Shown here piece by piece: positions 31,439 through 63,909 of a stretch of DNA of 64,000 nucleotides. A program made the translations under genes and the position numbers. Below the pieces are notes generated by a model. That model saw nothing but the letters and a program-made list of their open reading frames with translations. It ran no database searches and was not told the DNA's origin. Numbering within the stretch: position 1 is the stretch's first letter; each line of letters opens with the position of its first letter. Origin of the DNA: Acanthochlamys bracteata (Eukaryota; Streptophyta; Magnoliopsida; Pandanales; Velloziaceae); assembly GCA_019914995.1 (NCBI GenBank), contig CM034129.1, positions 5,221,725-5,285,724 on the forward strand, in the 5' to 3' direction.

Positions 31439-33522
31439 TTTGGTCTATAACTCCTTCAGCTTCTTTTCCTCTTCGGACGTGTTTAGCTATAAAATTGGTG
31501 AAGTGAATTTTTTGAAAATTAATTTAAAAAATAAAATTAAAATTAAAAATATTTAATAAAAAATAAAATTATATATAAATTTAATATTTATAGTAAGTTT
31601 TAAAAATAAACTTTTTAAAAAAATTTATTAATAAAAAAATTTTATTTTAATTTTATATATATTTTATATTAGAAGTGAGTTAAAAAAAAATAAATTTAAG
31701 GTGTTGTTAAACACGACCTTCGAGTGATTATAAAAATTATTTTTTCTGAAAGATACTTTTGTTTTTTTAAAAAATAATAATAAAAATATATAATAAAAAT
31801 TTTATTATTTAAATTTTTTTATATTTTAAAATTTTTTAAATATTTATAAAATATATATTAAAATATAAAATAAAATATTTGAAAAACGTAATTCCAAATC
31901 GTTCTCTAAAAGCTTTTATCTTTTTGTCTGATTTGTGTTCCTTACGGTTTGAAAGAATGCATCTGCCTTTATAACTTGCCCTATTAACAACTTTCTTTTG
32001 CTTTCTGGCAAACAACCCATTAGTAATTATCACGCATGTAGAAACCGAAAGTGCAATCTAGAACTAATGAGTTACAAAAAAAGTTCAAATTCTTATATAA
32101 TAACATGAAATTATATATTTATTTATTTTTTAATAATTTAACATCTCTTTGAGGCGCCTGCTATTTACAACAATTAGTTATAAAAAACTGAGCACACATT
32201 TGACTTTAATTTTTTATTTTACATTTTTTATAAAATTTTTACATATTCTATAAAATTTATTTAAAATTAAAAAAACAAAATATTATTTATTATTTTAAAA
32301 ATAAAATAATAAAACATATTTTTAAAGAAATAAAAATATTTTGTATTCAAAAAATTTCTTTTTTAAAATCAATTCAAACATTCGTGACACTCAAAACTTT
32401 ATATAAAGAATTATATTATTAATATAATATTAGTTTGTAATAATTTTAATATCCTATTTAGAGGACAAAATCTTCTTACGAATTAGAGACTCCCTCATGA
32501 AAGATATGAATTTTTTTTGCAAAACTGAGAACCCCTCTCTGGGGATGTATCTCGTTGCGAGGCATAAATATTCTTAACTGGAGTAATTCTGATAACATAT
32601 TAGTGAACAGATACAACTTAAAATCAATTGATTACAGATAAAAATATTGATATAATAGTGAGGAGTTATATTATTAATCAATATAAAAATATTCTTATGA
32701 AATCAATCACATTTGAATATAATAAAAAAGCATGAGCTACTTCAATGTTACAGTTCAGTTAATGAGAGTTACTTCATTGGAAGTAGATAATTATTTTTGA
32801 AGTGTTAGTGATGCTTTGCTCAATTGCATATTAACATATCTGGGTAGATAACAATTCTCTGATTCTATTCTCAAATACTATTTTATATAGAGTAAGTTTG
32901 AAAATACTTATCAAATAAAATTTAGTTGAATATAAAATATTGTAAAATTATTTTAAATGAGTATAAACTTTTAGACTTAAAAAAGTGTAATATAAAAATT
33001 TGCAATATGCAATATTTTTATATTTTCAAAATAATTTTATAAAATTATAAATTATTATTAAAATGATAAATAATTACTAATCAGCAATTCTATCTCTCAA
33101 TATCAGGGACTTGTCTCAGCACTTTGACTAATTTGTTTTTGCAGAAGCCAATGAATCATAATAGACAAGATTAGTTGGAAATGAACGGCTCAGATAACTT
33201 CAGATCAGTAAATTATTTCCATGTTTTCTTCCGCTTTTGTGGAAGACACTGAACCCACGTATGCTTTCACAGACTTTTGCAACAATCAATCAAACATCAA
33301 GTGAACCTTTCACTTGATCATCTAGAAAGATGCTTAACTGAATTCACAGGCAATCTCATTACTAACACGATGCATGATTCTTTCAATCATTCACGTAACA
33401 GAAGCATCAAAATGTTTGAAAGATCAAGTTCACACTTTTGGTTTCACATATACACACTGTATATTTATGTACTCTGAAAGACCAGATGGAGAATATATAA
33501 CAATTGAATCAATTAGAAAAAT
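31439..33522. other. Spacer between the Costars pseudogene and the CYSTM gene
   Basis: At least two strongly AT-rich blocks (about 31495-31910 and 32160-32390) belong to the second AT-rich MITE-like family, with repeated motifs such as TATAATAAAA and AAATATATATTAAAA. The stretch 33100-33520 is less AT-rich and is likely the 3' flank of the CYSTM gene. I see no coding gene. Confidence 0.5.
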
Positions 33523-39478: not shown

Positions 39479-42400
39479 ATGACAGATATGAGCTTGTCAT
39501 CCTCCGGCGGCCAGGTACGTAGCACGACTTTTTAGCTAAACTATAGATCACAGAAAATTATACAAATTAAAAGGAAAAAAAAAAAGAAGGGAGATTAGTT
39601 ATTAGAATTAGATTTGTGTTGAGGGTTGGGTGCTCTCATGTTTAGTGACTAATGGCCGGCAGGCATGCGCAGCTTGCAAACACCAAAGACGAAAATGCAC
39701 TGACGAATGCATTCTGGCGCCTTACTTTCCGTCTGACAACCAGCAACGGTTTCATAACGCTCACCGTCTTTTCGGTATTAGAAACATACTCAAGATCCTT
39801 GCCAGAGTAAAGAATCCGGAGCTCCGGCCGGAGTGTATGCGGTCGATCATATTTGAAGCTGATACCCGCGCTAAATCCCCGGTGCATGGCTGCTTAGGTG
39901 GTGTTATCAATCTCAGACACCGGTTAGCACAACACAGAAATGAGTTGCATTTGATTCACTCTTACCTTGCGGCTCTCGGTAAGTGTATATATACAATAAG
40001 TAGCGAAGTAGAAACCGGGTATTATTAACGTGTTGTGTTTCTGAACGCAGGAGTTCCGATGCCTTTTCCGTCTTCTGCATCGCCTCCTGGAAGTAACAAT
40101 CTTCCCTTGGACGCCTCTGATCACTTGTTCTACAATAATCACCAGTTTATCGATAGCAAAGCAGTGAACCTGATGGAAGAATCGCAACACAATCATTATA
40201 CGAATGTTGAAGTCCAAAATCCCTTGAATGTTCGACTACAACAACAACAACAACCAAATTTCAATGACCAAAATATTATCGCGTACCTTAATTCCATTGA
40301 TAGCGATGCAGATTCAAACCTTGCTTCGGAAGATATACATGATCTAAGGTGAGATCCTTTTATCTTTATAGCATTGGTTTGATGGAAACCGTATGCATTG
40401 CTCATATAACTAGTCGTCATGATGAGAAATGCCCATCCAGCTATAGTTTGACCTATTTATTTAGGCAATTAAGATAAAAGTTTCATCTAACATTTAGATT
40501 AAAAATTTTTTCTGGGTGTTCTGAGTGTTTTGATTTAGTAAATATAAATTTGGTAAAGTTAGAGCTCAATAACAAATCAAATTTGATAGAAATAGAATTT
40601 AAATTGATAACAAAAATAAATAAAATAAAACTTGATAAAAATAGAATTTAAATTGATAACTAAAATAGATAAAGTAAAATTTATGGCACGTTAGTTGTTT
40701 TTTAAAATGAGTTTTTGTAACACGAAGAGTATTTTGGTCATTTTTGAAAACAAGTTTTTCTTTTTATCTTAAACAGAATAATAAAATAATCAATAATAAG
40801 ATTTAATGATTTAACATTTTTTTATATTTTCAATTTTTTAAAATAAATTCTATATAATACTATAGAAGAATTATTAGAAAATAGAAAATTAAAATTAATG
40901 GTTGGTAGATTGAGTTCACCTTTCTCAGTCGGTATTTTACTATACAGTGCCGACTAAATATTAAATTCTGTCGATAAACAGTTTACCGACTATAAATTGC
41001 CAATGTTTTACTCATTATATTTATTTCAGTCAGTAATTTGCTTTGCCAATTAGATTTTAAAAATTACTGACTTAAAGTGTCAATCGGTGAAGTTGTTAAT
41101 TATAGTAGTGAAGCTAAATATATATTTAAAATAGAGTTTGATGAAGGTGGAATTTGTTTTGAACGTAAAAATAAAATTTGAAATGATAATTGAAACACAT
41201 AAATTGTTTGAACTCAAAGTTGGAAGGAAAGTGAAATTTTGTTAAATTAAAACTCTTCTATAGTGCAACAATCTGTGCATAAACCCTAAACACTTCTAGG
41301 TTTAGCTTATCAGAAAAACAGCTTTTTAATTTTCTATTTTATATTCTTCAATGCACATTTTATAAATATCTAGATAATTTATTTAAAATTTTAGAAAGTA
41401 TAAAAAAAATTTATATAGTGAGATCTTTTTATTACATATTTTTATTATTTTTTTAGAGATAAAAAAATAGAGCTTATTTTTCAAAAAAAATAAAAATATT
41501 TTTCATTACAGAAAAATTTTATTTTATAAGTACCGTCAAATGCCCGCTAGATAGGTCTTTACAAAACGTGGAAATTTTCTAATACTCTTACATGATGTGT
41601 TACTGTTCTTCTTGTTCTGTGAGATGAAGCTATAAAGATTCTTTTGAATTATGGGTATGGATGAGGAGGGATTATAAAGTTAACACATTTCTTATCCTTA
41701 CCCATATTTGATAATCTTTCATTAAGGAAAGGATTGGGAACTCTCCCCCATCCACTATTTTATAGTTAAATATGTACCCACTAAATTGGTGAGTACATAT
41801 ACTGACAAGAAGAGAAGCAAATTTACTTCCGCTTTTATCATTTTAATTTTTTATTTTTATAATATTTATTTTTATTTAATATTTTAAATTAATACATATT
41901 AGTTTTATTATAATAATTTAATTTTAATTAATTTTAATTGGTAGAAAAAAATATAATTATCTGATTATTTTTTATATGTATAATTAATAATTTTATATTA
42001 ATATTGAAAATTAATCTAAAAGTTATATTAATAAATTTTATTTAAAATTATATTAATAAATTAGTTAGAATTATATTAAATAAAATAATATTAATATAAA
42101 TAAAAAAAGTATTTGAGTCTTTTATGAAAAATTTACTTATATTATTTATTCATTTATCTTTATCATATATTTAAGTATCGTAAGATTAATTAATTATTTT
42201 TTCTATCCGTTTTTTTAGTCTTATTTCTTATTTATGAATCTAAATATATCCTAAATGTAGGATTACAAGGTAGCTGAAGAAGGGCGTTTGGGGTAGCTTA
42301 CTGTAAAAGTAAGTTTTTATTTCAAAATTTGTAATATATTTTTTATAAATATTTAAAAATTTTATTTGAAATTTTAAAAAATAAAAATATAATATAATAT

Positions 42401-46115: not shown

Positions 46116-47987
46116 TCAGGACCCTTTGCAGGAATCACTTACCTGGGCTCTAATCCTCCTGAGCTCTTCAAAAAGCTCCCTAGAATCAGGTCTGTCATCC
46201 TTGTCCATAGCAAGACACCTGAATGCCAGCTCCGCAACAGCCTCAACAGTCCTTAAATTCGTCTCAGATGCAACAGCCAGATCAACAACCTGGTGAAGAG
46301 CTCCAACCTGGATCTTACCAACCACCAGCTCTGCCAGTGACACTTCCCTGCTGTCTCTGCCCAAATCCACTGCTTTCATCCCAGTCACTAGTTCCAACAA
46401 CACCACACCGAAACTATAAACATCGCTTTTTTCTGTTAGCCTGAACGATCTATGGTACTCAGGATCAAGGTACCCTGGGGTGCCCTGTGGGCCTGTGCAC
46501 CGAGCATACTCTCTGGAATCAGCTGCAGAGGAATCCGGCGGCAAAAGAAGCCTCGACAACCCAAAATCTCCAACCTATTAGACCAAACCACAAACATGAA
46601 TTTTCAATATGGACAAATCTAACTAAATCATGTGAGGCGAGAAGAATGAACCATTAAAGTAGCTAGATGTACTAAATTTATTGAAATTCGAGAATCTAAT
46701 TCCATATATTCTACTACAGAACATGAATTGCGATAATCATGACTGCATCAAATTAAGTGGTAGGTAGGTCGGCGGTGATGAAGATGATGATACCTTGACA
46801 CGCAAATCACGGTCGAGGAAAATGTTCGCTGAGGTCACATCACGGTGAACAACGGGAGGCTTGAGAGAGAAGTGGAGATACTCAAGAGCCGAAGCTGTCT
46901 GCAGAGCAATGTCAACGCGTTTAGCCCAGGTAAGCGCCGTAGCACCGCTGCTACTCCGCCCGTGCAGGTGATCGGCCAGCGTGCCGTTACAAACATAGTC
47001 ATAGACAAGCAAAATCCCACCTCGTGGATCACAGCAGTATCCATGAAGCCGAACTAGGTTCGGGTGCGAGAGGGAAGAAAGAATCAAAATTTCATTGCAG
47101 AACGAAGCCGTAGCTGCCGGCGTGTGCCGGCGATGCAGCCGCTTAACTGCAACAGCGCGCCCATCAGGAAGATTCGCCAAGTAAACCGAACCAAACCCAC
47201 CATCACCGATCTTTCTCTGCAAATCAAAATCACTTGTAGCAACACGGAGCTGCTCGTAGCTGTACACCGGTGGCCTCCGCCGCATAAACGCATACATTGG
47301 TTCGGTAATCGCAAACATTCTCTTTCGCCGGAGTGAAGAAGCTGCCCAAAACGAAAGCAATAACAACAGAAAACATGTAATCGACAACAATCCCGTTGTT
47401 AGAAATAAAATCACACGAGTTTTTTGATCATCTGGTTTCGGCAAATTCGGATTCAAACACAAGAAGGGTTTGGTAACAACAGAATCATCGAAACCACAAA
47501 CACTGTTGTTGTGTTTTTCTCTACAATACTTGCAAGCAGTGAAGTAGATATCACTGTCGTTCCAAACAAGCTTAACACCGTTGTTGGATGCTTTCGTTGA
47601 AAGAACACAAATAGTTGAGTTAGACCGACATATGGAAATTGAGGAGAAGCGGAATGGAGAGCCGGTGAGATTGAGAGTGACCGGAAGATTACCGGAAGAG
47701 ATGAAAAGAGAAGAGTTCTGGTGAGAAAGAAGATAGAAGCGGTGGTTATTGATGGTGATAAGAGAGTGAGGAGTAGAGCAAATGATGTGGAACGAAGGGT
47801 GGCCACAGCCGGGAGAGAGAGAGAAAGGGAATGTAGAAGCTATGGATGGAGATTTGAACGGTGGACACGTGGAAGTGTGTGGCGGAGGAGAACAAAGTTG
47901 TTCGCCGGAGGTTACCTCCGTCAGGGTGGTGGTGGAGAGGACGAATAGGAGAACGGAGTAGCTAAGCAGCGGCGGCGGCGGCGGCAT
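46116..47987 (-). CDS. LRK10L/WAK-associated receptor-like Ser/Thr kinase, 550 aa
   Basis: Exons 46794-47987 and 46116-46574 join (AAG/GTT, phase 0) to 550 residues. Order: signal peptide about 1-28; a Cys-rich extracellular part resembling GUB_WAK_bind/WAK_assoc wall-binding regions, with Cys at 32, 41, 61, 70, 120, 127, 152, 155, 164 and 177; a membrane helix about 191-215; then a kinase with loop GDGGFGSVY (261-269), Lys282, HRDVTSAN (381-388), DFG (401-403) and GTPGYLDPEYH. The likely role is cell-wall or pathogen sensing at the plasma membrane. The subdomain VIb position that is usually Lys (HRDVK) is Thr385 here. A strong donor, CAG/GTAAGT at about 46148, lies just before the stop, so some transcripts may splice to a further exon and change the last residues (VSDSCKGS). 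Confidence 0.9.
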
Positions 47988-50643
47988 CTGAGGTGTTAAA
48001 GAGTTTCAGATCCGGGGAGTAGCAGGATACCTGAGCAAAGCTAAGTATGGAAGCTCACGTGGGCTGCGGAGCTGATGATAACGGAAGCCTTTTTGCATGA
48101 TCAGACCTTTAGTATACTTTTGGTCCTCAGTATCCGAAAGGTGAAAATAATATGAATTTGATCATTGATAAGTCATGCGACAACTTTATTTCTTTAAATG
48201 CAAATTAATGCAATTAAATAGAAGGCCCAGTTCAAGTGACCAAAATCTACATTGTTACTGTTAATAAGGAATTTAGAATGCATTTACTTGGGAGAAAATT
48301 TGAAGTATTAAAAGTAATTTTTTAATATAAAGTAAATATTAAATTTTAGTACAATTTATTTTTTAACAGAAAAAGTTAATATTGGTGAAAAATAAATACG
48401 CAGGTGGTGTTTGATACTGACTTCTTCTGTTCTTATTTTTGGAACGCATTTTTACTGATATTTTTTTAAAATTTAAATTATAAATATTTTTAAAATTATA
48501 TATTATAAAGTTATTATGTATAATTTATTATATTATAAAATAATTTTTTTTAGAAACTATACATAAGTACTTTTTTAAGTTGAACTTTTTTAACTATTCC
48601 AACCTAGGCCTAACTGAGTATTCATCTAAAGAAATCTACACAAATGCGCCAAGAAAAATGTTGCCTTCCTCGCGATGTCTACTTTATTATGGAAGGGCGT
48701 GATTGAGCCACGATGAAACGTCTATTTGAGCAAGGCAGTGACGGTTTGTCATTTCATTTTAAAAAAATAATTTTTATTTTTATATTTTTAATATATATTT
48801 TAAAATATAAAATTTATTTAGAATATAAAAAATAAAAAATTATAAAAATTTATTTATAATTTAAAGATTTATTTTTTAAAATAAAATAAAAAGATCTATT
48901 ATTTTAAAAAAGTAATTTCAAATTCCCTCTAACGAGATAAGAAACTGTACGTTTCAAAAATTGGTGAAAAGTTATTTGGGTTTCTATTTAAATCCATTTT
49001 ATCATTTACTTTATTTAATTATTTTAATAAAAAATATAATATTATAATTTTTGTAAATTCTGCATCCTAAAAAAGTTAACATTTATAATTTAAAACTTAA
49101 AATAATTTTTGTATATTTATTTTAAACATTGTTAAACGACCTCTACGAGACGGGTTACGAGCGATTTCCTCGTTTTCTCCGTGTGTTCGCGCAGAGGACT
49201 TCAAAAGACTTCGAAGGCACGGACAGTGACAGTGTCCTGTTGCTTACCAGTAGCAAATTCTGTTCCTTGTCCAATCTTCTCACTATACGGCAAAAGAAAA
49301 ATTAATACTAAAGAGATCTATCTCTTTCGAGCTCGTTTTGAAGTGCGTTTCGAACGTTTCAAAAATTTCATTTTATATTATATATTTTAATAAATATTTT
49401 TTATAATATTAATATAATTTTAAAATTTTAAAAAATATATAATATTATTATTATTATTATTTATTTTTAGGGATAAGATATAAATTTTAATTTTAATAAA
49501 ATAAAAATATTTTATATTTTCATTTTATAAATTTTTTAATACGGATTGTTTAAAAATATTTATGAAATAAATTTTTTTTAAATAAAATATATTTTTATTT
49601 TTTTGAAAAATAAATTTTAGTTTTTTATCTTAAAAAATAATAAAATATATAATAAAAAATTTTATTATGTAAATTTGTTTATACTTTTTAAATTTTTAAA
49701 TAAATCTTCTAAATACATATAAAATATATATTAAAAAATTTAAAATAAAAATTTAAAAAAGAGTGTTTGAAAAAGCACCCTTAAAGCCTTAACTAGTCTA
49801 AGAGTACTACATTTCTAAAAACCGGACTTTCCGAAAACAAAAAACATATTAGATTTTACAACATACTTTAATTATATAAAAATAAAATTTGTGAATGTAA
49901 AATATAATAAAAAATAGTGTTTAATAGAACTACAATTAGAGTATTAACTGAAATATATTAAATAATTTAAATTGAATTTAATAAAAATTAATTTAATTAG
50001 TAATTAAAATATTAAGAAAACGTTAAGTTCCTTGCGATATTACAAATTAATTCATATAAGACTACGTTTGGAATTGCGTTTGTGATGTTTAATTTTACTT
50101 TTAATCCATATTTTAAAATAAAATTTCTGATAAAATTATTAAAAGTTTAGCAAATACAAAAAATTTACTACATTTTATTATTACTTATTATTTTTTAAGT
50201 AAAAATAAAAACTTTATTTTAAAATATAATAAAAATATTTTTTATTTTTTGGTCCTTTTCTCAGTGTTCCCAATGATGTCAGTAGTAACCAACTCTAGGA
50301 TTACAAACTTAACCCAACTATAGATAACGATCAAGGGCATGGGCGTAACCAAATACCTGGCCAGATTGTATAACGTTTTCCAATAATTAAACAAACAGGT
50401 ACAAAATATATTTAGCAAAATTTATCCTGCCTATATAGTCAGTAGTAGCTACAATACAAAATTGTGAGACATATCGATTACATAACTAGTGCTGCACAAA
50501 ATTTGCAAAGGTTCCTGATTGTAATACCCACAAAAATCAACTGAATTGCATGACATATCGACCAAAAATAAAAAGATACTGCTGGATACTAGGATGGACA
50601 AGCACTACCATGCTTGATTGCACGAAGATTCTCCAGGAGAATT
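47988..50643. other. AT-rich intergenic region
   Basis: The kinase promoter occupies the first few hundred bases. Several blocks of the AT-rich MITE-like family follow (about 48410-48600, 48745-48925, 49365-49560, 49560-49790 and 49990-50250), with repeated A/T-run motifs and a TTATTATTATTATTA tract near 49445. From 50270 on the sequence is likely 3' flank of the DUF569 gene. No gene is visible. Confidence 0.5.
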
Positions 50644-52603
50644 TCAATTGTCCCGTTCCATGTATTGCGTTTGAGTACACGGCAGAATGTACAGTTTCGA
50701 TGGACCAACTTGTTTAATCTCTTCTTTAAATGTCAAATCTTTTACCAACTGCAACAGGAAAAATGGACGAGTTCATAAGAAGAAGGTAAAGTATTCCACC
50801 GGAGGAAAGTTATTGTCAGGAACACAGATGATTAGAGGTAAAAAGTTTCTAGCGCTATATAAAGAATGTATCGAATTAAAAATCTCAGTAGATTTTGATT
50901 TCATAAGCAGCAGTATATGAAACAAATATCCATGAGCATTGCATGTATTCATGAAAAAAACAAGACATCTCACTCACCTGTCGACGATGCTTGGACAACC
51001 ACAACATGCATTGTGGAATTATTAGGCGGCAGATGCAAAAGAAGAGGGTATAGCTTTCCATTCACTGGGTTCCTTAAACAAACATATATGTCACTGAGCC
51101 CAGTTTCAACTTCCAATTTCTGAGTTAACTCTGGCACACTTGTTCCCTTGAAAGAAATGCTAGGTGCCTCAATGCTCTCATCTACTTCACCATTCTCATC
51201 AGCAACTGAATAGTAAATTGTCCTACCCTTAGCTGTGGGAGGAGAGACACCAAAAGATGAAGAGGACTGCAAATTGACAAGCGCACACAGTTCAGCATGA
51301 GGACCATAATGACTATCCATGCACTTAGGCTATTACTGATTGATAAATTACATATATATCAACGATGGAACTAATGCATAAATTAAAATGATAAAAAAGC
51401 AAAAAGGAATTTTGAGACAGTACACACACTAGCAATTTCTAAAAAAATCACAGGTGAAGCTAGATAGACGGAAAGAACTCACTCTCAACTGATCAGTTTC
51501 TAAAAAGCCAATAAGTCCGTGACCAGAATCTGTCACCAAGTTAATGCAAAAATCTATCCTTTTCGCATATGTTGAATACTAGCTACAATCATAAGCACAT
51601 CCTAATTAGAATCTCTTGCACAGAATCAGTGCCCAAAAAACCCAACTACAGCCAATAAAACTCCCAATCCCGCATGAAGAGAGCAGCATTGAAGTTACAT
51701 GATTAAACCAGACATACATGATGCAGGTAAATGAAGCAAAACAAGCAATCACACACAAAGTACCTGCTTGATAGAATGATAGCTACTGATCCATTTCACT
51801 CACCTAAATATACCACAAAACATCAACGAGGACTCCTGTATAGCAGGGAATACAAGATCAACAATCACAAATTCACATATACCAGAATTCAATTACACAG
51901 AACGTGAAGGATTGACATCTATCAGACAGCAATTACAAACACACACCAAGAAACAAACAGGAGTCTGACAATAACTCAAGAAACCAATCAATCTATCCAT
52001 GTATTAGCAATCGAATCATAAACGTTTCGACAATACCTTCAGCTTCGACAGTTCTTTGTGTGACCGCTCATGGTGACTATTCCGTTCTTCATTGTCATGT
52101 TTAACATTGCTAGACGGTACAGCTTGTGGAGAAGTAACACGAATCTCAACAATATCGATATCCCACAGAACCCAATCCTGCGTCGCTGTCCGTGACGGCA
52201 CATCATGAGTAACAGAGTTTCTCCAAGGCGGTACACCGCCGTTAGCTCGGAGGTAATTTCCGTACCGTGTTTTAAGCTTAATCAACGCGCCCTCACGAAT
52301 CGGTTCCCACTCGAGAGAAGAATCTAAACGGCGCGGAAGGGTTTGTAGAACCTTCCGGCCGGTCCATCCGAGAAGGAACGGTTCGTTCGACGCAGTTAGA
52401 TATTTGTTGTAGCAACTCTTGAGACGGATCACGTGCGGAGGGGAATTTGGATCGCCGGAGTTGAGTATTTCAACGAGCCATCGTACGCGGCTAGAAGAAC
52501 CGTCCCGTTCTTGATTCACGTGCTCTTCATCGTCGGAGGCGGTGAGAAATTTGTCGTGGTGGCTACGTAATCTTACCACTTTCGCTTTCAGGAAAAACTC
52601 CAT
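50644..52603 (-). CDS. DUF569 / fascin-like beta-trefoil protein (last exon uncertain)
   Basis: Exon 1 (52037-52603) encodes MEFFLKAKVVRLRSHHDKFL through the DUF569 repeats (VIRLKSCYNKYLTAS, LIKLKTRYGNYLRANGG), the beta-trefoil pattern that gave these proteins the name actin cross-linking or fascin-like. Exon 2 (50978-51266) encodes a second conserved part (GRTIYYSVADENG, LYPLLLHLPPNNSTMHVVVV). The splice between them is phase 0. A third exon that looks coding (LVKDLTFKEEIKQVGPSKLY, stop at 50644-50646) exists, but its best acceptor (ending 50749) does not fit the phase of the exon 2 donor. An acceptor ten bases further in, after AAAAG, would fit. Used as is, the best acceptor gives a short tail VGKRFDI. 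The molecular role of plant DUF569 proteins is not established. Confidence 0.8.
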
Positions 52604-55600
52604 TATCGATACTCTAGAGTAGAGTTTGTATACAAAATCAGGATCAGAAGAAGAAGAATAGATGGTGATCTTTGTTGTTTGGTTCTGGGGAGAAACTGAA
52701 ATGAAATGGAATGCAAAATTTTTTTGTTTTTCCTACTTGTATGTTGTTGAGAGAGTTGAAGAAAGAAGGAAAGCGGAGTGGGAATTTGTTGAAGGGAGAA
52801 TTTAAATGAAATGAATGAAACGAAATGAACGAGAAGGATGGAACTGGAGGGAAACGGTTAGGAAGCGGCGAAGAATAAAAAACGAAGAAAGAGCGCGTTA
52901 AGCAAAAACGAAGCAACATCGAACGTGTGTTTTTTGATGGCTTGCTTCATTAATATCAGGAAAGGAACAGAAAACACATGAAGATAACTTTGTCGTTGTT
53001 GTTGGAATTGGAATTTATTTGGACCAAATCAATCTTCGGTCAAAAATAAACAAAGTTCCGCGGAGACATTCACTGTTCATATTCAGGTACAAACAAAATG
53101 AAGCAAAAACGTAATGAAATTTTCTTGTGGAAGGTTGTCCGCCACCGGTTGATAGAAACCTCTTCTGTCTGACTCGGTCATAAGAGAATTGCAGCCTACG
53201 TGTTGCAAATTATAATGTTTAAAATTTGTCTATATTCAATTCAAATCTGTTCCAAGCGTAGATAGAGATGAGACCGCCACTATTGCCATTTTTCTAAAAG
53301 ATAAAAAACCAAGAGAGTAGCCACCGCCATTCTTTAGATAAGCGCAAAGATCGCATTAAGGGCTGGTTTGATTGAAGTACATAAAAAATTTCTTTTTGAT
53401 AAATAAGCATTTCAAAAATAAATGTAAATAATAAGTTAAGTTCTTTATTTAATTATATATAGGAAATAAGTTTGAAGTAAATATTTTGATAAGTAGTTGT
53501 GAGAGAACTAGTACACCCTGGGCTCTTGAACGGGACTAGTAGGATGTAGAATTAGAGCACTGGTTTCGGCACGGTGTCCGCAATAGAGATGCCAATTGAA
53601 TTTTTTAGTCAGTTTCGGATCGATTAATAAAATAATCAGTTCAAAATTATTCAACTCTAATTTAATTTATTTATTTATATAGATCAAAATTATCTATCTT
53701 AATTTAACCTATTTTAAACCAAATAAAATTTACATCTATCTATTTAATAATTAAAATAATTAAAATTAAAATTATAAATATTAATTTCTATAAAATTTAT
53801 AAATTAAATAAAAGTTAATTAAATTATGATAAATTAAGAAATATATATATATAAATTAAATTCATATCTTATACTATTATTCAAATATTTTTAAATTATT
53901 AAATAATATATATTATATAAATAGTTATACAAGTTAAATATGTTAATTAGAATTCGATCTGAATTTATTTAATTTTTGAGATCAAATTCGGATCGATCTG
54001 AACTCGACAAAGATTTGACCAAATCTAATTATTTTGAATCTATTTTGGGTCAGATTTGAATGTGCCACCCGTAATCTAAGCAAGTAGAACATCTCTAAGG
54101 CAATCAGTATAACGTCAAATGTATAGTATCAGTTACAAATTAACAGATAGAGATATATACACGCAAAAAAAAGGCACAAGATAAGATTATTAAATCTACA
54201 ATGTTGAGATATTACATTAAATATCTACGCGCTCCTAACCTGTACGAAATAACTAAAAGTTTGAATACAACTTGTATGTGCAGCCTATTCATGATACGTT
54301 AAGATAGACGCTTGCACTTTCCTAGCAGCCAAACCACAGGTGCCATATGCTATATACTCTGCATAAGTGGGATTTTTTAGGATTTACTTAAATAAAGTAT
54401 TTTAAAATGTAGTTTTTAGTAGAATTTTTGAAAACGAATATTAAAAACAATAAAATATATATATATATATATATATATATAACAATTTTAATTTATTAAA
54501 ATATTTGAAAAAATTTCTTAATAATTAAAAATAAAATAAAATAAAATAATTAGTTGAGAAACAAAGTCAAACTATCCTTATATGTCAGGGTCAGGATTGT
54601 CAGCACTACCTGCTAAGTCATGACAAGAGGGAAAAACAATACATAACAATGGTGCAAAAGTTTCATCTCACGAGTAATAGAAAAAACTTCGATAAGCATT
54701 TCAGCGAGCTATCGCCTCTTACAAGATATAGGAATGAGTTGGCCACTTCACTTGTGCTCAAATAGGTCAATACCTCAAAAACAAAAGGAACAATCTTTGA
54801 AGCCAAACCAAGAACAACAGGAACTTTGATGCAGTACCCTTTGGTTTAATTAAAATAACACCCTCCGGTCAATATCCAAGGTTACCAAAACATATCAAAA
54901 AGAGCTTGGCTGAAGTTTCTGTTTGACAATTTGCCAAAAGCAATTTGTCAAAGATCCAGCGACTATTACAAAATCCAATTTCTAAAGTACATTAGCACTT
55001 TTCAGACAGGAGATTGATTAGCCTGAGTTCACAAAAAGGTTCAACATCCACATTCGAGGCATCTGGCTAACAAATTGACCATGAGGCATGAGAAACTAAC
55101 ATGTCTACCTCTTTACATCATCACCATTGACACTGTCAACACCATTACAAACCCTAAAGCTTCATGAAATACAAGATGCTATACAAAAATTCTCAAGCCC
55201 AAGCTGGAAGACTCTATCATAAATCTCTGCACAATAAAGCAAATATGGGATACCTACCAGCTTCCACTTTGGCGTCCTTATATGCTTACAAGAATCAGTA
55301 CTCTGCCAATGCTTTTATCACTTTTAAGGCAAAATTTTATGCACAAGTAGTATGAAGGTATAGAATAGGTTAATGGCATATTTACCGTGTCCAACTCCGC
55401 TATAGTTGATTAGCACCTTTTGGTACTAAATTTCAGCTTTATGTCGCTCCATTTGTTGAAGGAAAACATAACACAACTTGCCTCCAATATGGCAGTCTGG
55501 CTGTTACTAGTAGAAAATGCCTCTGTCGCCAAGTGTCATAATTTCTGGTCACTGGTGTGCAACCCAAGAGGGAGAAAAAACTGGCCTTGCTGATGAATCT

Positions 55601-55758: not shown

Positions 55759-58700
55759 CTAACTTTGGGACTCAAAGAACAGGACTTGAGGTTGTAGATG
55801 ACCTCTTGCACACATGGTAATGACATCATCCCAAGAACCAATTACCTGCACAAAGCAATTTTAATTGGGTGCTAGTGGGCAAATAATATCTAAGATTTGG
55901 CAAGGATGTGCTTCTGTGAGGACTGTACCTTCACATTTTGGTCATCATACATGAACCATTGCTGAGAGTCTGGGCGGTACGCAAAACAGTGATAATGCTG
56001 CCCATAGTAACAAACCTGGAAAGGGCAACAGAGGCACAAAATCAACTTAGCACTTGCAGAAGACTGTAACTCTGTATTATATCCACTGAAAATAATCAAA
56101 ATATACTAATAAACTTCCTATGATAAATTTGGTTAAACAACCAGGGATACCAAGTCAAAAGAAAAAGTTCACTGCAGCTAAAGCTAATGGTTGGTTGACA
56201 TAGTCTGATCCGCAAGACGCATGTAAAGAATGGTATTTCCTTACGATTTACAAACAAATTCAAAGCATATTTATTAATGCCTTAATGGTACATCTTCAAC
56301 ATCATAATGTTTCTCTTTAACATTACATTTGACTGCAATACCAAGTAGGTTGAATTGCGGCTTTTAGAATGTAAATCAGTTTCACCCCACTAAAGTATAA
56401 TCCAAATAAATGCCTAACTCTTGTGCTTAGTCCAAAGAAATGGAGTCCAACTTCAGAGTTGACGTGGAACAGTTTTCCTTACACTATGCAGACAATTTGA
56501 CGGAAGTTTTGAAGCAAACCAGCATCTAAGTTTGTGCAACCTATGGCCTCACCATTTGGAATGGAAGATAGAACTGGTAACTGTAACAGGCATTAGTAGA
56601 AGAAGAATGTTCCGGCATCATGGACTATGACATATAACAATGAATTCCAATTTTATGCCAAGGAGATGGCAAAGAGAAGCAAAGACTACTTTCCTCAAAG
56701 TTCTATAGTTATGCAGAATGAAGAGCACAGATACGCGCCAGAAGAAACAAAACCCGCCAAAAAAAAAAAAAAAAAAAAAACCAAACAAACAAACAAACAA
56801 ACTTTCAAGCTTGAAGTGATCTAATCCTTCACCATACATTACTTTTGAAGTTGTAAAAAAAGATTCACATTGATTTGTACTACACCAGTATCGAATTACT
56901 AAAAAAATTTATAATACGTATTTCAGAGCTGAAGCATCCTGTAAATATTCATGCAACTTTACCTATAAATGCCTCCAAGAGGATTACTTTATAAAGAAAT
57001 ACAAGTATCAAAGCTTTGGAACTCAACTTCCAAGGCATACTTAAAATATGACAACTCTATTCAAAGGATAACCTGGTTAGTCATTTGACTCAAGGAAGCA
57101 TTAAACAATTTAGCCATTGTCTACAAATGTTTCTGTTCTCGGTTTTGGTTCACAAAACTATTAGTAAAAGATAGGGTAACTTGTATTCAACAGTTCGAAA
57201 CTAAAAGGTCATGAAAAGCTACACCTTAATTTTCAAAATGATCCAAGTTTAAAGAGGTGGACCAAGAAAAGTTTAGTTTTAAGGTAAATTTTATTAACAA
57301 CCAACATTGGGAGCACCTCAAAAGAGTCATAAATATCAGTGGATTTCCCTGTAATTGTTTCATAAACATCGCTGAACAAAAGCTGGAAAAGTAATAATCT
57401 CAAAATGTTTGTTCGAAGTACAAAAGACATGTGTTGTACACATACCACGGAAACAAGAGAGTACTTCCTTCCCAGTTCAAGTCCACTATATAGGGATCCA
57501 ATGTCTAATTCTATAGTTATTGCTGCTAGAGTTGCCACTATGTCCTCTGCACTTTCATTCGTATTCTGCCAACCCAAAACTGCAAAACAGACCAGCTAAC
57601 ATATCGTATGATTGATATAAAAGCTTGCAATCATTATAATTCCAAATTGCAAAAAGATTACCAGTTGTAAAAATATGTGGAGATCTTGAAAGAATATGAT
57701 GTATATAGTTCAATTCTCCACAACCTCCACTATCTGGATCACATGTAAGCCGGTGATTTCTTTCAACAATTTGTAAGAGTTCACCAAATGAGTTATCCAC
57801 ATGCATTACCTGCAGGTGATCAAGTAAAAAAGATTTATCAACATGGCACTGCAAGTTACCAATGTGTGATAACACAAAAAACAAGTAAATTTCAAAGGGA
57901 TAAAAGAGCGACAGAACTCAGACATGCCTTTGTTGAACGAAGTGCACTTGCATTGATGTTATGAAAAAATGAAGAATACTTAAGGTGCCTGGAATCGACA
58001 CCACACTTATAACAGTTCATCTGCTCATATATGTCCATGCCGAAAAGGTTATGCGCAATACAATTAACACTTGCACAATCCCAATTGCCCACAGAATTAC
58101 TTTCTTCTGTTGCCTCAAAATCAACAGAAGGAGCTGTGAACGAGTGATGAAGACAGTCAAATATCACGGCTAATACTTCAGAAGCATCATTCATTTGTCC
58201 CTGAAAGCACCGGAGGATCTTTGAGTTACACATATTTAGAGTGATTGATACCATTCATTAACAGCCTTACTAGCTTACTGTGCCCCCCTTGAAGAATGAG
58301 ACTAAACAGAACCCATACCTCCTGGAAGAAATTGCTGTCTGGGTACAATCTACTCAAAGCAATTCTCAGTGGTGTAGGTGCAATAGCTTCTGTCTGAACA
58401 TCTTCTGAAGCTTTGTTCAAGGCAGAGAAGACATCGTATAATGCACAAACAACACAGGGTTGGCCGACATGTAAATGAAAACGGGACTTTCTTAGGAACT
58501 CTTCCCTAAATGAGCTTAAATTCCAGAGTGACTACACCGAGAATATCAAGAAAAATAATCAATGAGCAAAAAGTTGTAGTAGCAATTGGACAGAAGGTAT
58601 GCGACACTGACCTGTATAATCACATTCAAGAAACAGTTATATTCACCAGCTTCATTTTTCAGGCCTGCTCCGAGCACGTCTTTCACTCCATCAGAATTGC

Positions 58701-61700
58701 AAGCCTGCTCTTCTGAAGAATCTTCATAATTATATACGGAAACTGCAGCTTTTGAAATTGGTACTGTATCAGAAATGGATGTTAGACCTCTATGTATTTC
58801 ATAAGTTTCCGAGTATTTGGGCTTGTTTACCAACGCACTAAACTCACTTTTTCTCAAACTCACTTTTAATACAAAATAAATAAATTATTTTTATTAAAAA
58901 TTTATTTTTAAAATTCAATTTTAAAATTTACTTTCAATACAAAATAAATATAAAATTATTTTTTATTAAATATTTTATTTTTATTTTTAAACTCACTTTA
59001 AAAAATGTGAGTTTACTTCAAAGTAAACACACCCTTTATGTAACTTTCTTACATAAATACTCAAGAAAAAACTCATGCTACATTTAGAAACATGTATATG
59101 TCAAAGCAATCTATTGTTTGCATAAAGCATCACTAACCGAGGCTTTGCTTGACAGCTTCTTTGAGGTCTTCCTGGAATGCTTCCTCATCATTCTTTTCCT
59201 TATGCAGACGTCTTGACACCTTATCTTCATCTCTTCCTGCAAATTGGCATTTGGTCTTTCATTAAAAGAGGAAAGATTCATACTCGTACCGACCAATTAA
59301 AGAAACAAAGTATAACAATATTTCTTAATAAAAGTTTGCTCGGGGTAAAACCTGAACTGCAGCCCAAGTGAAAATTTTAGGAAGACAGAAATGCATAGCC
59401 TCTAAAAAAATTGTAAAGGAAATTATTTGCAAAGAATAAGTGTATTTGTCAGAAAAACCCTACTCATGAAAAGCAAGTTACTTTATACATATTTGAGCTA
59501 CACTTAAGAACCAATACATACATAACTACATAAAATAGGACCCCCAATAAACAAATAAACAAGTAAAAAGATTGCTAAGTAGTATGGTAACACGCTAGAG
59601 CCAGAGAGAGAGAGAGAGCCTTTCTTGCCTTCTGACTTGGTACATATCTTCGTAGACACAGAACTTCCTTTTATTCTGTTCACCTGAGAGATTTCCAATT
59701 CATTCAATACCACACCATTCTGAGGACGAGATGGTAATGGTCCTGCAGGCACATTGATAGGGTTGCCCTTGTCATTGTATATAGACAGGTCAAGATCAGA
59801 AAGTTTCAGGAAGCCAACTCCACCAGATTCGCTTTCAGACACCTTAGTTTTATAGTTCGTGTAGATTCTGTTTGATGTAACTCCTGCATGTTCAAGATCA
59901 CTGATGTCTATTCTTCCAAAAGAAATTGACAAATTATGGGAGCTTTCTTGACTGTAAGAAATTGATCGTGCTCTTAGTTGATTGCTAGTGGCATCTGAAT
60001 CAACAGAACCAAACGTGTTAAGCTGATCTCTTGGCAAGGTAGCAACACTCTTATATTGTTGGGCTAAGTAATTCTCAAATCGTCTCTGGTACTCCAAAGA
60101 TTCCTCTAGTTTCCTCTCTTCCTCTTCAATCTCCATCATACGCTTAAGCTCATCTTCCTGTGTTAAATGATCACCACTTGCTAGAACCTCAGACTTGCTA
60201 ACATTACTGCCAGTAGCACCAGAGATCTCACTGCAAAAGTGTATAATGAGTAATCTGAACATCCACAGATAATAAAAAAGTAAAAATAATTCATAAACCA
60301 AAAAACCATATGTGGTGAAGCCATGATTTACTGATACTTTTGAATGATTCTTTTCTGTCAAAAAGTGTTATGCTAAACATGGGACTTAAAGAAAGAAATA
60401 GATTGCTCAACACCAGCAGACCTGGAATAGGAACGTTACAGTTAATTTGAAAAATATATTCAATTAATTCTCCTTAAAAATAAGTTGGTTATATAAGAGA
60501 TAGCACTTCAATAACATTTATTAGAACAAAAAAGCTGCCTCCAAACATACTTTCCATAAAAAGAATGGTGTTAAATATCAAGGAATACTTTTATGAAGGG
60601 TACAGAAAAGAATGGCATGTATATGCACAGAAAATAAGGTGTAAAAGTTGCATTTCCAGTCATAACAAAACTACTCACAAATGGTGGATGTGTTTATTCA
60701 AATGAATATTGCATGAGACTATAAGATCAATAATTGTGTTTCTGGTAATCAATTACAAAGCCAGCCCATTAGTCATAGTAATTTCAGAAGTGGGAAAAGA
60801 CATACTCTTCTTCCACAGTATACAAATCGGATTGTTTCCCATTGCCCCCTACAGCCTGCAAATACATCGGTAAGCCCATGTCCAAGCGAAGATCTAAAGT
60901 TCACAAGAAAATTATGACATAAGATAATTGAGACCTTCACATCTTTAGATTTCCTATGATCTTTGTTCTTTTTCTTGTCCTTACACTTCTCCTGTGCTTG
61001 TTTTGAATGATCTCCACCTTTATTTGAGGGCTTTTTCGCATCATGTTCAAGTTCTGCCAAGAAAGCTTGACTGGCAGCATCAGACTTTTCCCTGGCATCT
61101 TTATCAACTAGGTCTTCCAAGTGAAACTGCATGATCAGTAAGTTAACAAAGTGAAATAGCATTGATAACCATATCAACACTTGGAAACTATAACAAAATT
61201 AAAAAAAAAAACTAACCCGCAAGAAAGACTTCACAAGAGGTACAACTACAATGAGATAATTGAAAGAAGAAGCAAGACGCAGCTTCTGCTCTTGGTACTG
61301 TATTTCATTTACACTCTGCATCATCTTTCCATCAATTTTGCTAAGCTGCAAGAAACGAATATCTGAGATTGTCAAGCAATTATGTATCATAAGTTGCATA
61401 ATACAAGACAAACCTCAATAGAGAGCTGTTCTTTTTGCCTCTGCATTACTAATTCAATGCAAGTATCTGACTGCTGACAGTAATCCTGCACTCTGAATTC
61501 GCCGTCTTCTTTGCAATCCAACTCGCGAAGATGAGAAGTCACACCTTGCATTGTATCATCATACCCGAAGTGGGAGTCATTCAGAGTTTGTGCCTCCTTC
61601 AGAATACTTGAGATGGCATCAAGCTCAATCCTGAGGCTTGGGGGAATCGAATCTTGCTCCTCTCCAACAATTTCCTCTTGTCGCTTTTTTAGAACAGCCC

Positions 61701-63909
61701 CGTATGTATCATGAACAGATGTTGCAGCTAGTGCTCTTTTCTTAATTGCTTCTAAGCAATGGTTCTCAACAGCATTTAGACCCTCTCCATAGCTTAAGTG
61801 CTCCAGCTTTCTCTCATACAAGCTACGTAACTGGTAAAATCCCTTATCCATACTTTGCAGGATCTCTGCACTCTGAGTTAATTTCACCTCCCTTGTTCTA
61901 TTCCATGCTAAGAGCTGATCCTCAACAGAATGTGAAGAAAATAACCATGAGATAAAAGCATCTGTGTCAAGCATAGATCCCATAGCATCATTAGGAGAGG
62001 ATTCAGTAGAAACATCTGCAGCAGGCTTTCCATTAAAAAAATGTGCATCCAGCTGAAGATGCAAGGAATTGCAAGTCAGAACAACTTCCTCCATGCCATC
62101 ATTAATCTGGCTAGTGCCATCTGTGTCACCACCAAAGTTATCTTTTTCAGAATACCTTCCAACACCACATTCCTGTGAGAGGTCCTGAAAGAACTTCAGG
62201 ACTTTGTGAAGCTGGGAAGCACCAAGAAGGCATATGGACATAGGGGACTGGTTGTTAAGATGTGGCAGCAGTTGCTGACCGGAGGGAAACTGTTGTATCT
62301 CCTCAACTGCAAATTGAAAAACCTTATTAAGGTGACCAATAGAAAGACTTTTGTGCTTGATAAGCATTTGAATGAGGCTCTGAATTCTCTCAAGCAGCTT
62401 TGTTCTATCGGGATCATTGGACAGGGGCCATTTACATATGACCTTAGCATTTCTACCAAAACCAGAGTCAAGAAGCATCTTATTATCCTGTCTTTCACAA
62501 GGGAAGCCATTAACATAACAGGCCTCTCCATGCCGCCAAGTTAATGCGCAATCCCTCTTCTCATTATCACCGTTTGAGTCTATTGTGACAGGCACAACTC
62601 CCTGCTCATGGTCTTCAGCAAGGTTTTCTAAAACTCCACCAACATCAATGGGCTTCCAATCAGAATTTAGGAGAGATTCAAGGCATTCTCCTTCAACTGC
62701 CTGTGGCAACAAGGACTGAAGCTTAGGGGAGAAGTTATCAATGTGCTCACGCACAGTGTGCTCCAAAAGGGAGTCACAGTCTGTAAACTTGTCTTTGCAT
62801 CGGCAGCAGCACCAGAATTTCCACGTCTGACTCACCTTTCCAAACTCCAGAGCCTCGGATAAGACATCAAGCATGGTGTTGTCCTTATAGTGCATCAGTA
62901 GATCAGAGATGCTGGCCTTGAGGAAATCCAGTCGCTTCTTGATAGGCAGGGAGTTCCAGTAGGCACGGACCTGCTCCTTCCTCTCAACCAGAGAGCTGGA
63001 GGACTTTCGGGGGTTCATAAGCTTGCGCCGCTCTGTGTGACGATTGGAAGTTGATGAGGAGGGCAACGGCAGGGTTGATTCAGCATTTACATTGCTTAGT
63101 GATCCATCTGGGTTGCTCTGCTGGATAAGGCGGGCAGCGGCAACACGAACTTCGATCTCCTTGCGGCGTTCTTCAGGGGTCTTTGTGGCCTTCTTGATCT
63201 CATTTTGACGACGGGCAGGAGGGCCAAGCCGTGCTTCCACAGGGTCATCAGGAAACCGTTGTATCGGAATTATTCGGAACTTGTCCTCTCCTGTACTGCC
63301 ATTGCCAAACTTCTTCATCCACGAGGAAATGGAAGCAAGGCTCGACTTCTGGACAAGGGACCGTAACTCCTGCTGTACATGGGCAATCCTAGCTTCTGCA
63401 GTGGGCAGTTTCTGCTCGTCGCCAACACCATCTTCGGCAGGGTCAACTGGGTTTTCAACTGACAAAGCCCGCTCGCACTCCTGCACCACGTCTTCGAAAT
63501 TGCAGCCTGCATCAGCTGAGGCAGATTCTAAGAGGAGACAAGCATAGAAATGTGCAAACTCAATCGATGCCGGAGAAAGCTCTGTGGCTCGGCGAGCAGA
63601 ATCGACAGCGGCACGAAGGTGCCGCATTTTGGCAGCAGAATCATCAAGGACTGAAGCAATTTTTAAGTGAACGTTGCCATTGATGCGGTGCAGCAGCGGT
63701 GAGGACGAATGCTGCGTAGAAGCATCCCGCATCACACGCAACGCACGTGCGTGGTTGCCCCGCCTGAGGGCATTGAGGGCCTTATCGCACTCCACCTTCA
63801 CAGCTGCGAGATCACTGGCCTCCACCGCCTGCTCTTCTACTGCTACCGCCGTCGGCGGCGCTGTTGGTGGTGGCAGCGTCTGCGGCGCGTTTCGCCGCTT
63901 CCGCGCCAT
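55759..63909 (-). CDS. DUF627/DUF629 ubiquitin-hydrolase-like protein (USP53/54-type), 13 exons, 1586 aa
   Basis: Exons (minus): 61414-63909, 61217-61345, 60935-61126, 60806-60855, 59629-60230, 59138-59236, 58612-58862, 58319-58531, 57928-58200, 57662-57809, 57446-57579, 55929-56015, 55759-55845. The joined frame is 1587 codons. Order: DUF627 (about 40-150), which looks TPR-like; DUF629 with a C2H2-like finger (CCCRCKDKF...HTVREH, near 370-390); a coiled, Lys-rich linker; then a C-terminal USP fold. The Cys box is GEYNCFLNVIIQSLW (Cys1266), with zinc-knuckle-like Cys pairs (NCYKCG, CDPDSGGCG) and the His box GQHYHCFAY (His1536). Animal USP53/54 with the same layout have been called inactive, so deubiquitinase activity is open. 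Introns after exons 5 and 9 start with GC. Exon 7 begins inside a MITE. Confidence 0.93.
56759..56803. repeat. Poly-A followed by (CAAA)n
   Basis: About 22 A followed by about five CAAA units, in the 1.4 kb intron before the last-but-one exon of the UCH-like gene. It could be the poly-A end of an old retroposed element in plus orientation, but the bases before it are not recognisable. Confidence 0.85.
58819..59034. mobile_element. MITE with GGG(C/T)..GTTTAC ends overlapping a UCH-like exon
   Basis: The left end is GGGCTTGTTTACCAACGCAC. The right end, reverse-complemented, is GGGTGTGTTTACTTTGAAG. Both continue into AAACTCAC motifs. TTT flanks both sides (58816-58818 and 59035-59037). The interior is A/T-rich, with AATACAAAATAAATA repeated and no coding frame. 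Similar internal motifs recur at about 42860-43250 and 44415-44680. The element sits across the 3' splice region of intron 6 of the UCH-like gene. Confidence 0.7.

Follow-up and report, generated by a model that had tools for sequence, protein, structure and literature searches.

A MITE in intron 6 of a DUF627/DUF629/UCH gene of Acanthochlamys bracteata as candidate source of a splice acceptor for a conserved exon

Which splice acceptor opens a conserved exon when a MITE occupies the intron in front of it? The question is raised by a gene on the minus strand of a 64,000-nucleotide stretch of Acanthochlamys bracteata DNA (hereafter the window), in which a first-pass annotation had proposed that a MITE supplies both the acceptor and the first codons of the exon with the UCH-like Cys box.

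Host gene and intron 6

By reading-frame assembly, the host gene spans positions 55759-63909 on the minus strand, from an ATG at 63909 to a TAG at 55761-55759, and is modelled with 13 exons encoding DUF627, DUF629 and UCH domains. The previously given length of 1586 residues was reproduced, provided that the MITE acceptor is used in intron 6 and the GC donor 59628 in intron 5; if the weaker GT donor 59664 ends exon 5, the product has 1574 residues. Pfam matches to PF04781, PF04780 and PF00443, each covering its profile nearly in full length, mark a ubiquitin-specific-protease-like product, with DUF627/DUF629 matching the first long exon and UCH the 3' exons. The UCH match (PF00443, E 1.5e-33, profile positions 2-253 of 254) runs over the whole length of the domain, as is a feature of UBP/USP proteins, and the closest solved structure was USP54 (8c61, E 2.3e-46), which resembles the host product in the UCH part only, as searched. 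DUF629-containing UBPs have been described from rice and poplar (PMC6249995, PMC8281628), and in these, as in the host gene, a UCH (peptidase C19) domain accompanies DUF627/DUF629; the available portions of these descriptions do not mention the exon 7 boundary. When the whole genome (195.5 Mb, 557 contigs) was searched with the UCH part and then a 180-residue query from exon 5, the host locus alone was returned and hence no second gene copy or paralog.

Searches for orthologs in viral contigs and in genome contigs yielded 2 and 10 matches with a pattern from the window protein and 1 and 3 pattern matches with a presumed plant consensus, none of which was confirmed. Four presumed ortholog peptides were not found in a literature search, in which the matching papers carry just the DUF names. 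Scans of the window against Rfam (gathering threshold) and for tRNAs gave no matches. Elsewhere in the window, three long frames resemble by eye a receptor-like kinase (46116-48005, minus strand), a DUF569-like protein (52016-52732, minus strand) and an LBD-type protein (39612-40028, plus strand). In gene content and introns, the window appears plant-like.

Exon 6 (59138-59236, minus strand; in-frame codon score 0.59) ends with ...EDLKEAVKQSL plus one base, i.e. in phase 1, and is followed by the donor TCG/gttagtga at 59137, whose score of 4.74 exceeds those of the other five donor sites listed between 59100 and 59240. The earlier claim that the Cys-box exon must follow a phase-1 donor agrees with this site. 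The two phase-2 donors listed in the same interval, as alternatives for other AGs of the MITE, were rejected as improbable with scores of just -0.56 and -0.29, as were the phase-0 donors 59219 (2.72) and 59153 (-0.56), which would fit phase-0 AGs but lose the end of exon 6. With the MITE acceptor in use, intron 6 would comprise 58863-59137 (minus strand). The rest of exon 7 (58612-58712, minus strand, frame assembly) contains the Cys box GLKNEAGEYNCFLNVIIQ, at the start of which the UCH Pfam match begins. Two apparent GC donors occur in the host gene on the minus strand, 59628 (AAG/gcaagaaa, phase 1) and 57927 (AAG/gcatgtct), both accepted on frame continuity alone.

The MITE and its family

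The MITE in intron 6 measures 216 bp (58819-59034, minus strand) and is flanked by AAA at 59035-59037 and 58816-58818. Its terminal inverted repeats, GGGTGTGTTTAC and GGGCTTGTTTAC when read inwards, are alike at 10 of 12 positions, and its subterminal arms of 19 nt at 84%. Genome-wide, the family has at least 40 loci including the host-gene copy, all with at least 77% identity, a lower bound given that 40 of 1670 first-look candidates were scored and all 40 matched. The first-pass annotation was right in calling the insertion real on account of its matching ends and 3-base duplication. Thirty copies were inspected, i.e. the one in the host gene and 29 others, and in 23 of them the 3-base flanks on the two sides agree at a fixed offset: nine TAA, seven TTA, three AAA (among them the host-gene copy) and one each of TTG, TAT, TTC and TTT. 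MITEs of the Tourist/PIF-Harbinger type are short, dispersed and multi-copy, are mobilised by a PIF/Harbinger transposase, have inverted ends and show a 3-base duplication with a preference for TAA or TTA. Given the 3-base flanks (16 of 23 being TAA or TTA) and the inverted GGGYKTGTTTAC ends, the family appears to fit this type, and we assume that the name applies. The host-gene copy shares the short length, the inverted ends and the 3-base duplication with the type, but its duplication is AAA instead of the preferred TAA or TTA. Further matches to the family occur in the window, of which 31497-31713 is the strongest among the matches listed (75-79% over 160-185 aligned bases), besides many weaker A+T-rich ones, some of them probably low-complexity.

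The candidate acceptor AG lies at 58863-58864 (minus strand; tatttattttgtattaaaag/TGAG, matrix 2.62). It is in phase with the donor 59137, and the frame is open into the conserved exon through a putative MITE-derived coding part at 58819-58862 (minus strand, frame assembly); the earlier reading of TTAAAAG/TG in phase and followed by the 15 codons VSLRKSEFSALVNKP was confirmed. Within the MITE, no other phase-1 AG has an open frame, and the stretch before the candidate consists of 96% A+T. Does the open frame then indicate selection? The AG is kept in 25 of the 30 family copies, and in 13 of the 30 it is combined with the same phase and the absence of a stop up to the element end. Since site and open frame are features of the family, the open frame in the host-gene copy is not evidence of selection, and this reading was rejected; that both are family properties was counted against the MITE acceptor. 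Relative to the family majority, the host-gene copy carries 16 substitutions over 216 compared sites and four indels, with 3 of 44 sites substituted in the putative coding part and 13 of 172 in the rest, which also holds the four indels. The resulting substitution ratio of 0.9 is the thirteenth lowest of the 30 copies and makes no constraint visible, likewise a point against the MITE acceptor, but 44 sites give little power. Constraint on transposon-derived codons would be a sign of function rather than a strict criterion for a coding exonized transposon. Across the family, the equivalent of the AG scores like a weak acceptor: 16 of the 25 copies with an AG, including the one in the host gene, reach the level of the weakest true site. 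The family may be prone to exonization.

Competing acceptors and the native start of exon 7

The candidate had been described as the only in-frame acceptor, which turned out to be incorrect. Among 31 AGs between 59077 and 58640, 13 are in phase 1 with an open frame, namely the MITE site and 12 further ones between the MITE and 58640 (58788, 58764, 58749, 58743, 58722, 58713, 58710, 58686, 58680, 58668, 58665 and 58650), of which 58650 cuts into the Cys box and the other 11 do not. None of the other AGs among the 31 that lie upstream of 58788 is both in phase 1 and open, which argues for the MITE AG. The same holds for base composition: in a table of 11 native sites and 12 candidates, MITE site included, it shows the largest contrasts between upstream and downstream sequence, both for U (0.52 versus 0.26) and for A+T (0.96 versus 0.62). 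Against the site speak an A at position -3 and a matrix score of 2.62, below those of all 11 accepted acceptors of the host gene (3.64-7.8).

To rank the 31 AGs, a model was built on the 11 other introns of the host gene, which had been accepted on frame continuity alone, and evaluated by held-out testing. The splice and branch matrices were generic plant values, not learned from the Acanthochlamys bracteata genome, and the features of the four-feature score (matrix, U contrast, G+C contrast and branch-site score) were of our own choosing. Using the matrix alone, the model put the true site on top in 9 of the 11 held-out introns, and the MITE site was seventh of 31. Matrix plus U contrast again gave 9 of 11 correct, with the MITE site second after 58705 and level with 58713, while the four features were correct in 10 of 11 and placed the MITE site first of 31. 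The margin is small (-1.88 for the MITE site, -2.01 for the frame-breaking 58705 and -2.32 for the in-frame 58713), and among 236 decoy AGs 14 reached the score of the MITE site, as did 10 of the 11 true sites, so the four-feature ranking favours the MITE site weakly. The use of the MITE as an exon stays a proposal, whereas the insertion on which the first-pass annotation had built it stands.

Where did exon 7 begin before the insertion? Between the MITE and the rest of the exon lies a linker (58714-58808, minus strand; (E)TYEIHRGLTSISDTVPISKAAVSVYNYEDSS) that looks coding. Tested as 58809-58714, it is open in the gene frame; its codon score is -0.02, compared with -0.05 to 0.19 for the other 3' exons and -0.35 or less for the introns tested in every frame. 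An open frame with a score as high was found in 7 of 2158 overlapping intron windows, and 25 of 131 exon windows scored as low. For 58809-58765 alone, 48 of 2631 intron windows were open with a score as high, with 107 of 199 exon windows as low; the respective fractions were 31 of 2400 and 44 of 171 for 58809-58744, and 185 of 2565 and 23 of 191 for 58764-58714 alone, the less clear half. As the linker is coding-like, the native exon start was probably located upstream of 58788, and exon 7 probably began upstream of the rival sites, at 58808. An in-phase start at this position gives SL-E-TYEIHRG; orthologs presumably read SL-D-TYQAHQ, which would make a [DE]TYxxH match. By phase and by the coding-like linker, the native acceptor can be placed tentatively at 58809-58810 (minus strand), where the sequence now reads GG followed by AA ACT TAT GAA. 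Upstream of the MITE, four AGs are listed, in phases 2, 2, 2 and 0, and removal of 219 bases (MITE and one duplication) is phase-neutral, so that the empty site, with today's letters, would be without an in-phase AG upstream of 58788. Loss of a native AG would be the simplest history. That the linker frame has stayed intact since the insertion is probably not strong evidence that it is still coding, considering that the copy differs from the family majority by those 16 of 216 sites and four indels.

Weighing the explanations

We hypothesise that a Tourist/PIF-like MITE inserted in intron 6 at a point eight bases upstream of where the native acceptor lay. This acceptor would have been cut off from its upstream tract, while the element would have contributed a U-rich tract along with its own AG. 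The native AG would since have gone, leaving the present GG in its place, and splicing would most likely have shifted to the AG 58864-58863 behind the U-rich MITE interior, in phase by chance. Of the 18 residues that exon 7 would have gained, the MITE would account for 15 and the duplication together with former intron sequence for 3 (KYS).

Alternatively, an in-frame acceptor downstream of the MITE (58713, 58722, 58743 or 58764) could be used and the whole MITE be intronic, which we consider unlikely, though clearly worth weighing. The product would then have 1536-1553 residues with the Cys box intact and, relative to a start at 58808, would lose 15-32 residues of the linker, the peptide TYEIHRGLTSISDT being part of what is skipped, instead of gaining 18. 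All four sites are in phase 1, free of stops and better placed than other in-frame rivals, and their matrix scores of 3.48, 3.13, 3.05 and 2.71, respectively, exceed that of the MITE site, as does that of 58665 (3.49). The acceptor 58764-58765 (minus strand; ggtctaacatccatttctgatacag/TACC, ATACAG) has a branch-like CTAAC 18 nt upstream, whose score of 4.51 is above those of all 11 native sites, and 58713-58714 (minus strand; taattatgaagattcttcag/AAGAGC, TTCAG) ranks third of 31 on four features. That 58764-58714 is not clearly coding by itself also fits such a start, and 58722 was picked in two later untuned runs of an unsupervised gene finder. This program, run on the window and 29 other loci, had chosen 58863 in an over-split first run and was given no weight owing to over-prediction. 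On the other hand, the skipped stretch 58809-58714 as a whole looks coding, 58764 and 58743 have an unfavourable U contrast, and all four sites fall below the MITE site on four features. A recent switch to a downstream site is possible.

The insertion might also have damaged the gene, with mostly frame-breaking acceptors (58705, 58838) or intron retention and an allele heading for loss. The AG at 58705 is the best of all by matrix (4.54) and second on four features, and with its use translation would stop after 1193 residues, short of the UCH part; but the gene is otherwise readable through 13 exons, DUF627, DUF629 and UCH are matched nearly in full length, and the genome search revealed no second copy, which makes damage improbable. 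About equally improbable is continued use of the native place 58809/58808, with the MITE as plain intron, by way of a wrong assembly base at 58810, segregating AG/GG alleles or a rare GT-GG splice: the place is one base away from CTCAG/AA, phase and frame fit a product of 1568 residues, and an AG would score 1.52 in the joined flanks without the MITE, but the assembly reads GG, and an AG would score just 0.11 in the present MITE context.

Taken as a whole, the explanation by a MITE acceptor seems to us about evenly poised between right and wrong, and the same may be said of the AG 58864-58863 being the acceptor actually used: it is a reasonable first guess, not a forced one. If the linker is still present in the mRNA, the MITE acceptor would be the best single explanation. 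Somewhat more doubtful is the wider claim that the dead native acceptor of a constitutive intron has been replaced by the family-wide acceptor of the MITE, with transposon residues in every functional protein and no second gene copy.

Exonization of MITEs with alternative 3' sites has been reported for mulberry transcriptomes (PMC6593561), the only match of one phrase-based literature search on MITE-derived exons. In that study, MITE parts are kept in the mRNA via splice-site-like motifs, as proposed here; there, however, alternative splicing was deduced from transcriptome data, whereas the host-gene site, proposed from sequence, would serve as the principal entry into a conserved exon. In Arabidopsis, chimeric transposon-gene transcripts indicate that alternative acceptors (A3SS class) can arise from transposon sequence (PMC10241880), a result based on long-read RNA and transposons in general, in contrast to one MITE family and DNA alone in our case. 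If true, the host gene would be a clear case of the already known MITE exonization, of note chiefly because the genome search revealed a single gene copy and splicing would depend on the site. It would illustrate in compact form how an obligatory splice site passes from host to transposon DNA without a backup gene copy, in contrast to the alternative isoforms described in the accessible parts of PMC6593561 and PMC10241880. In addition, it draws attention to a MITE family in which an acceptor-like site and an open frame are frequent. This family could have done likewise elsewhere: the AG is retained in 25 of 30 copies, and 13 of the 30 combine it with a frame that is open in the same phase.
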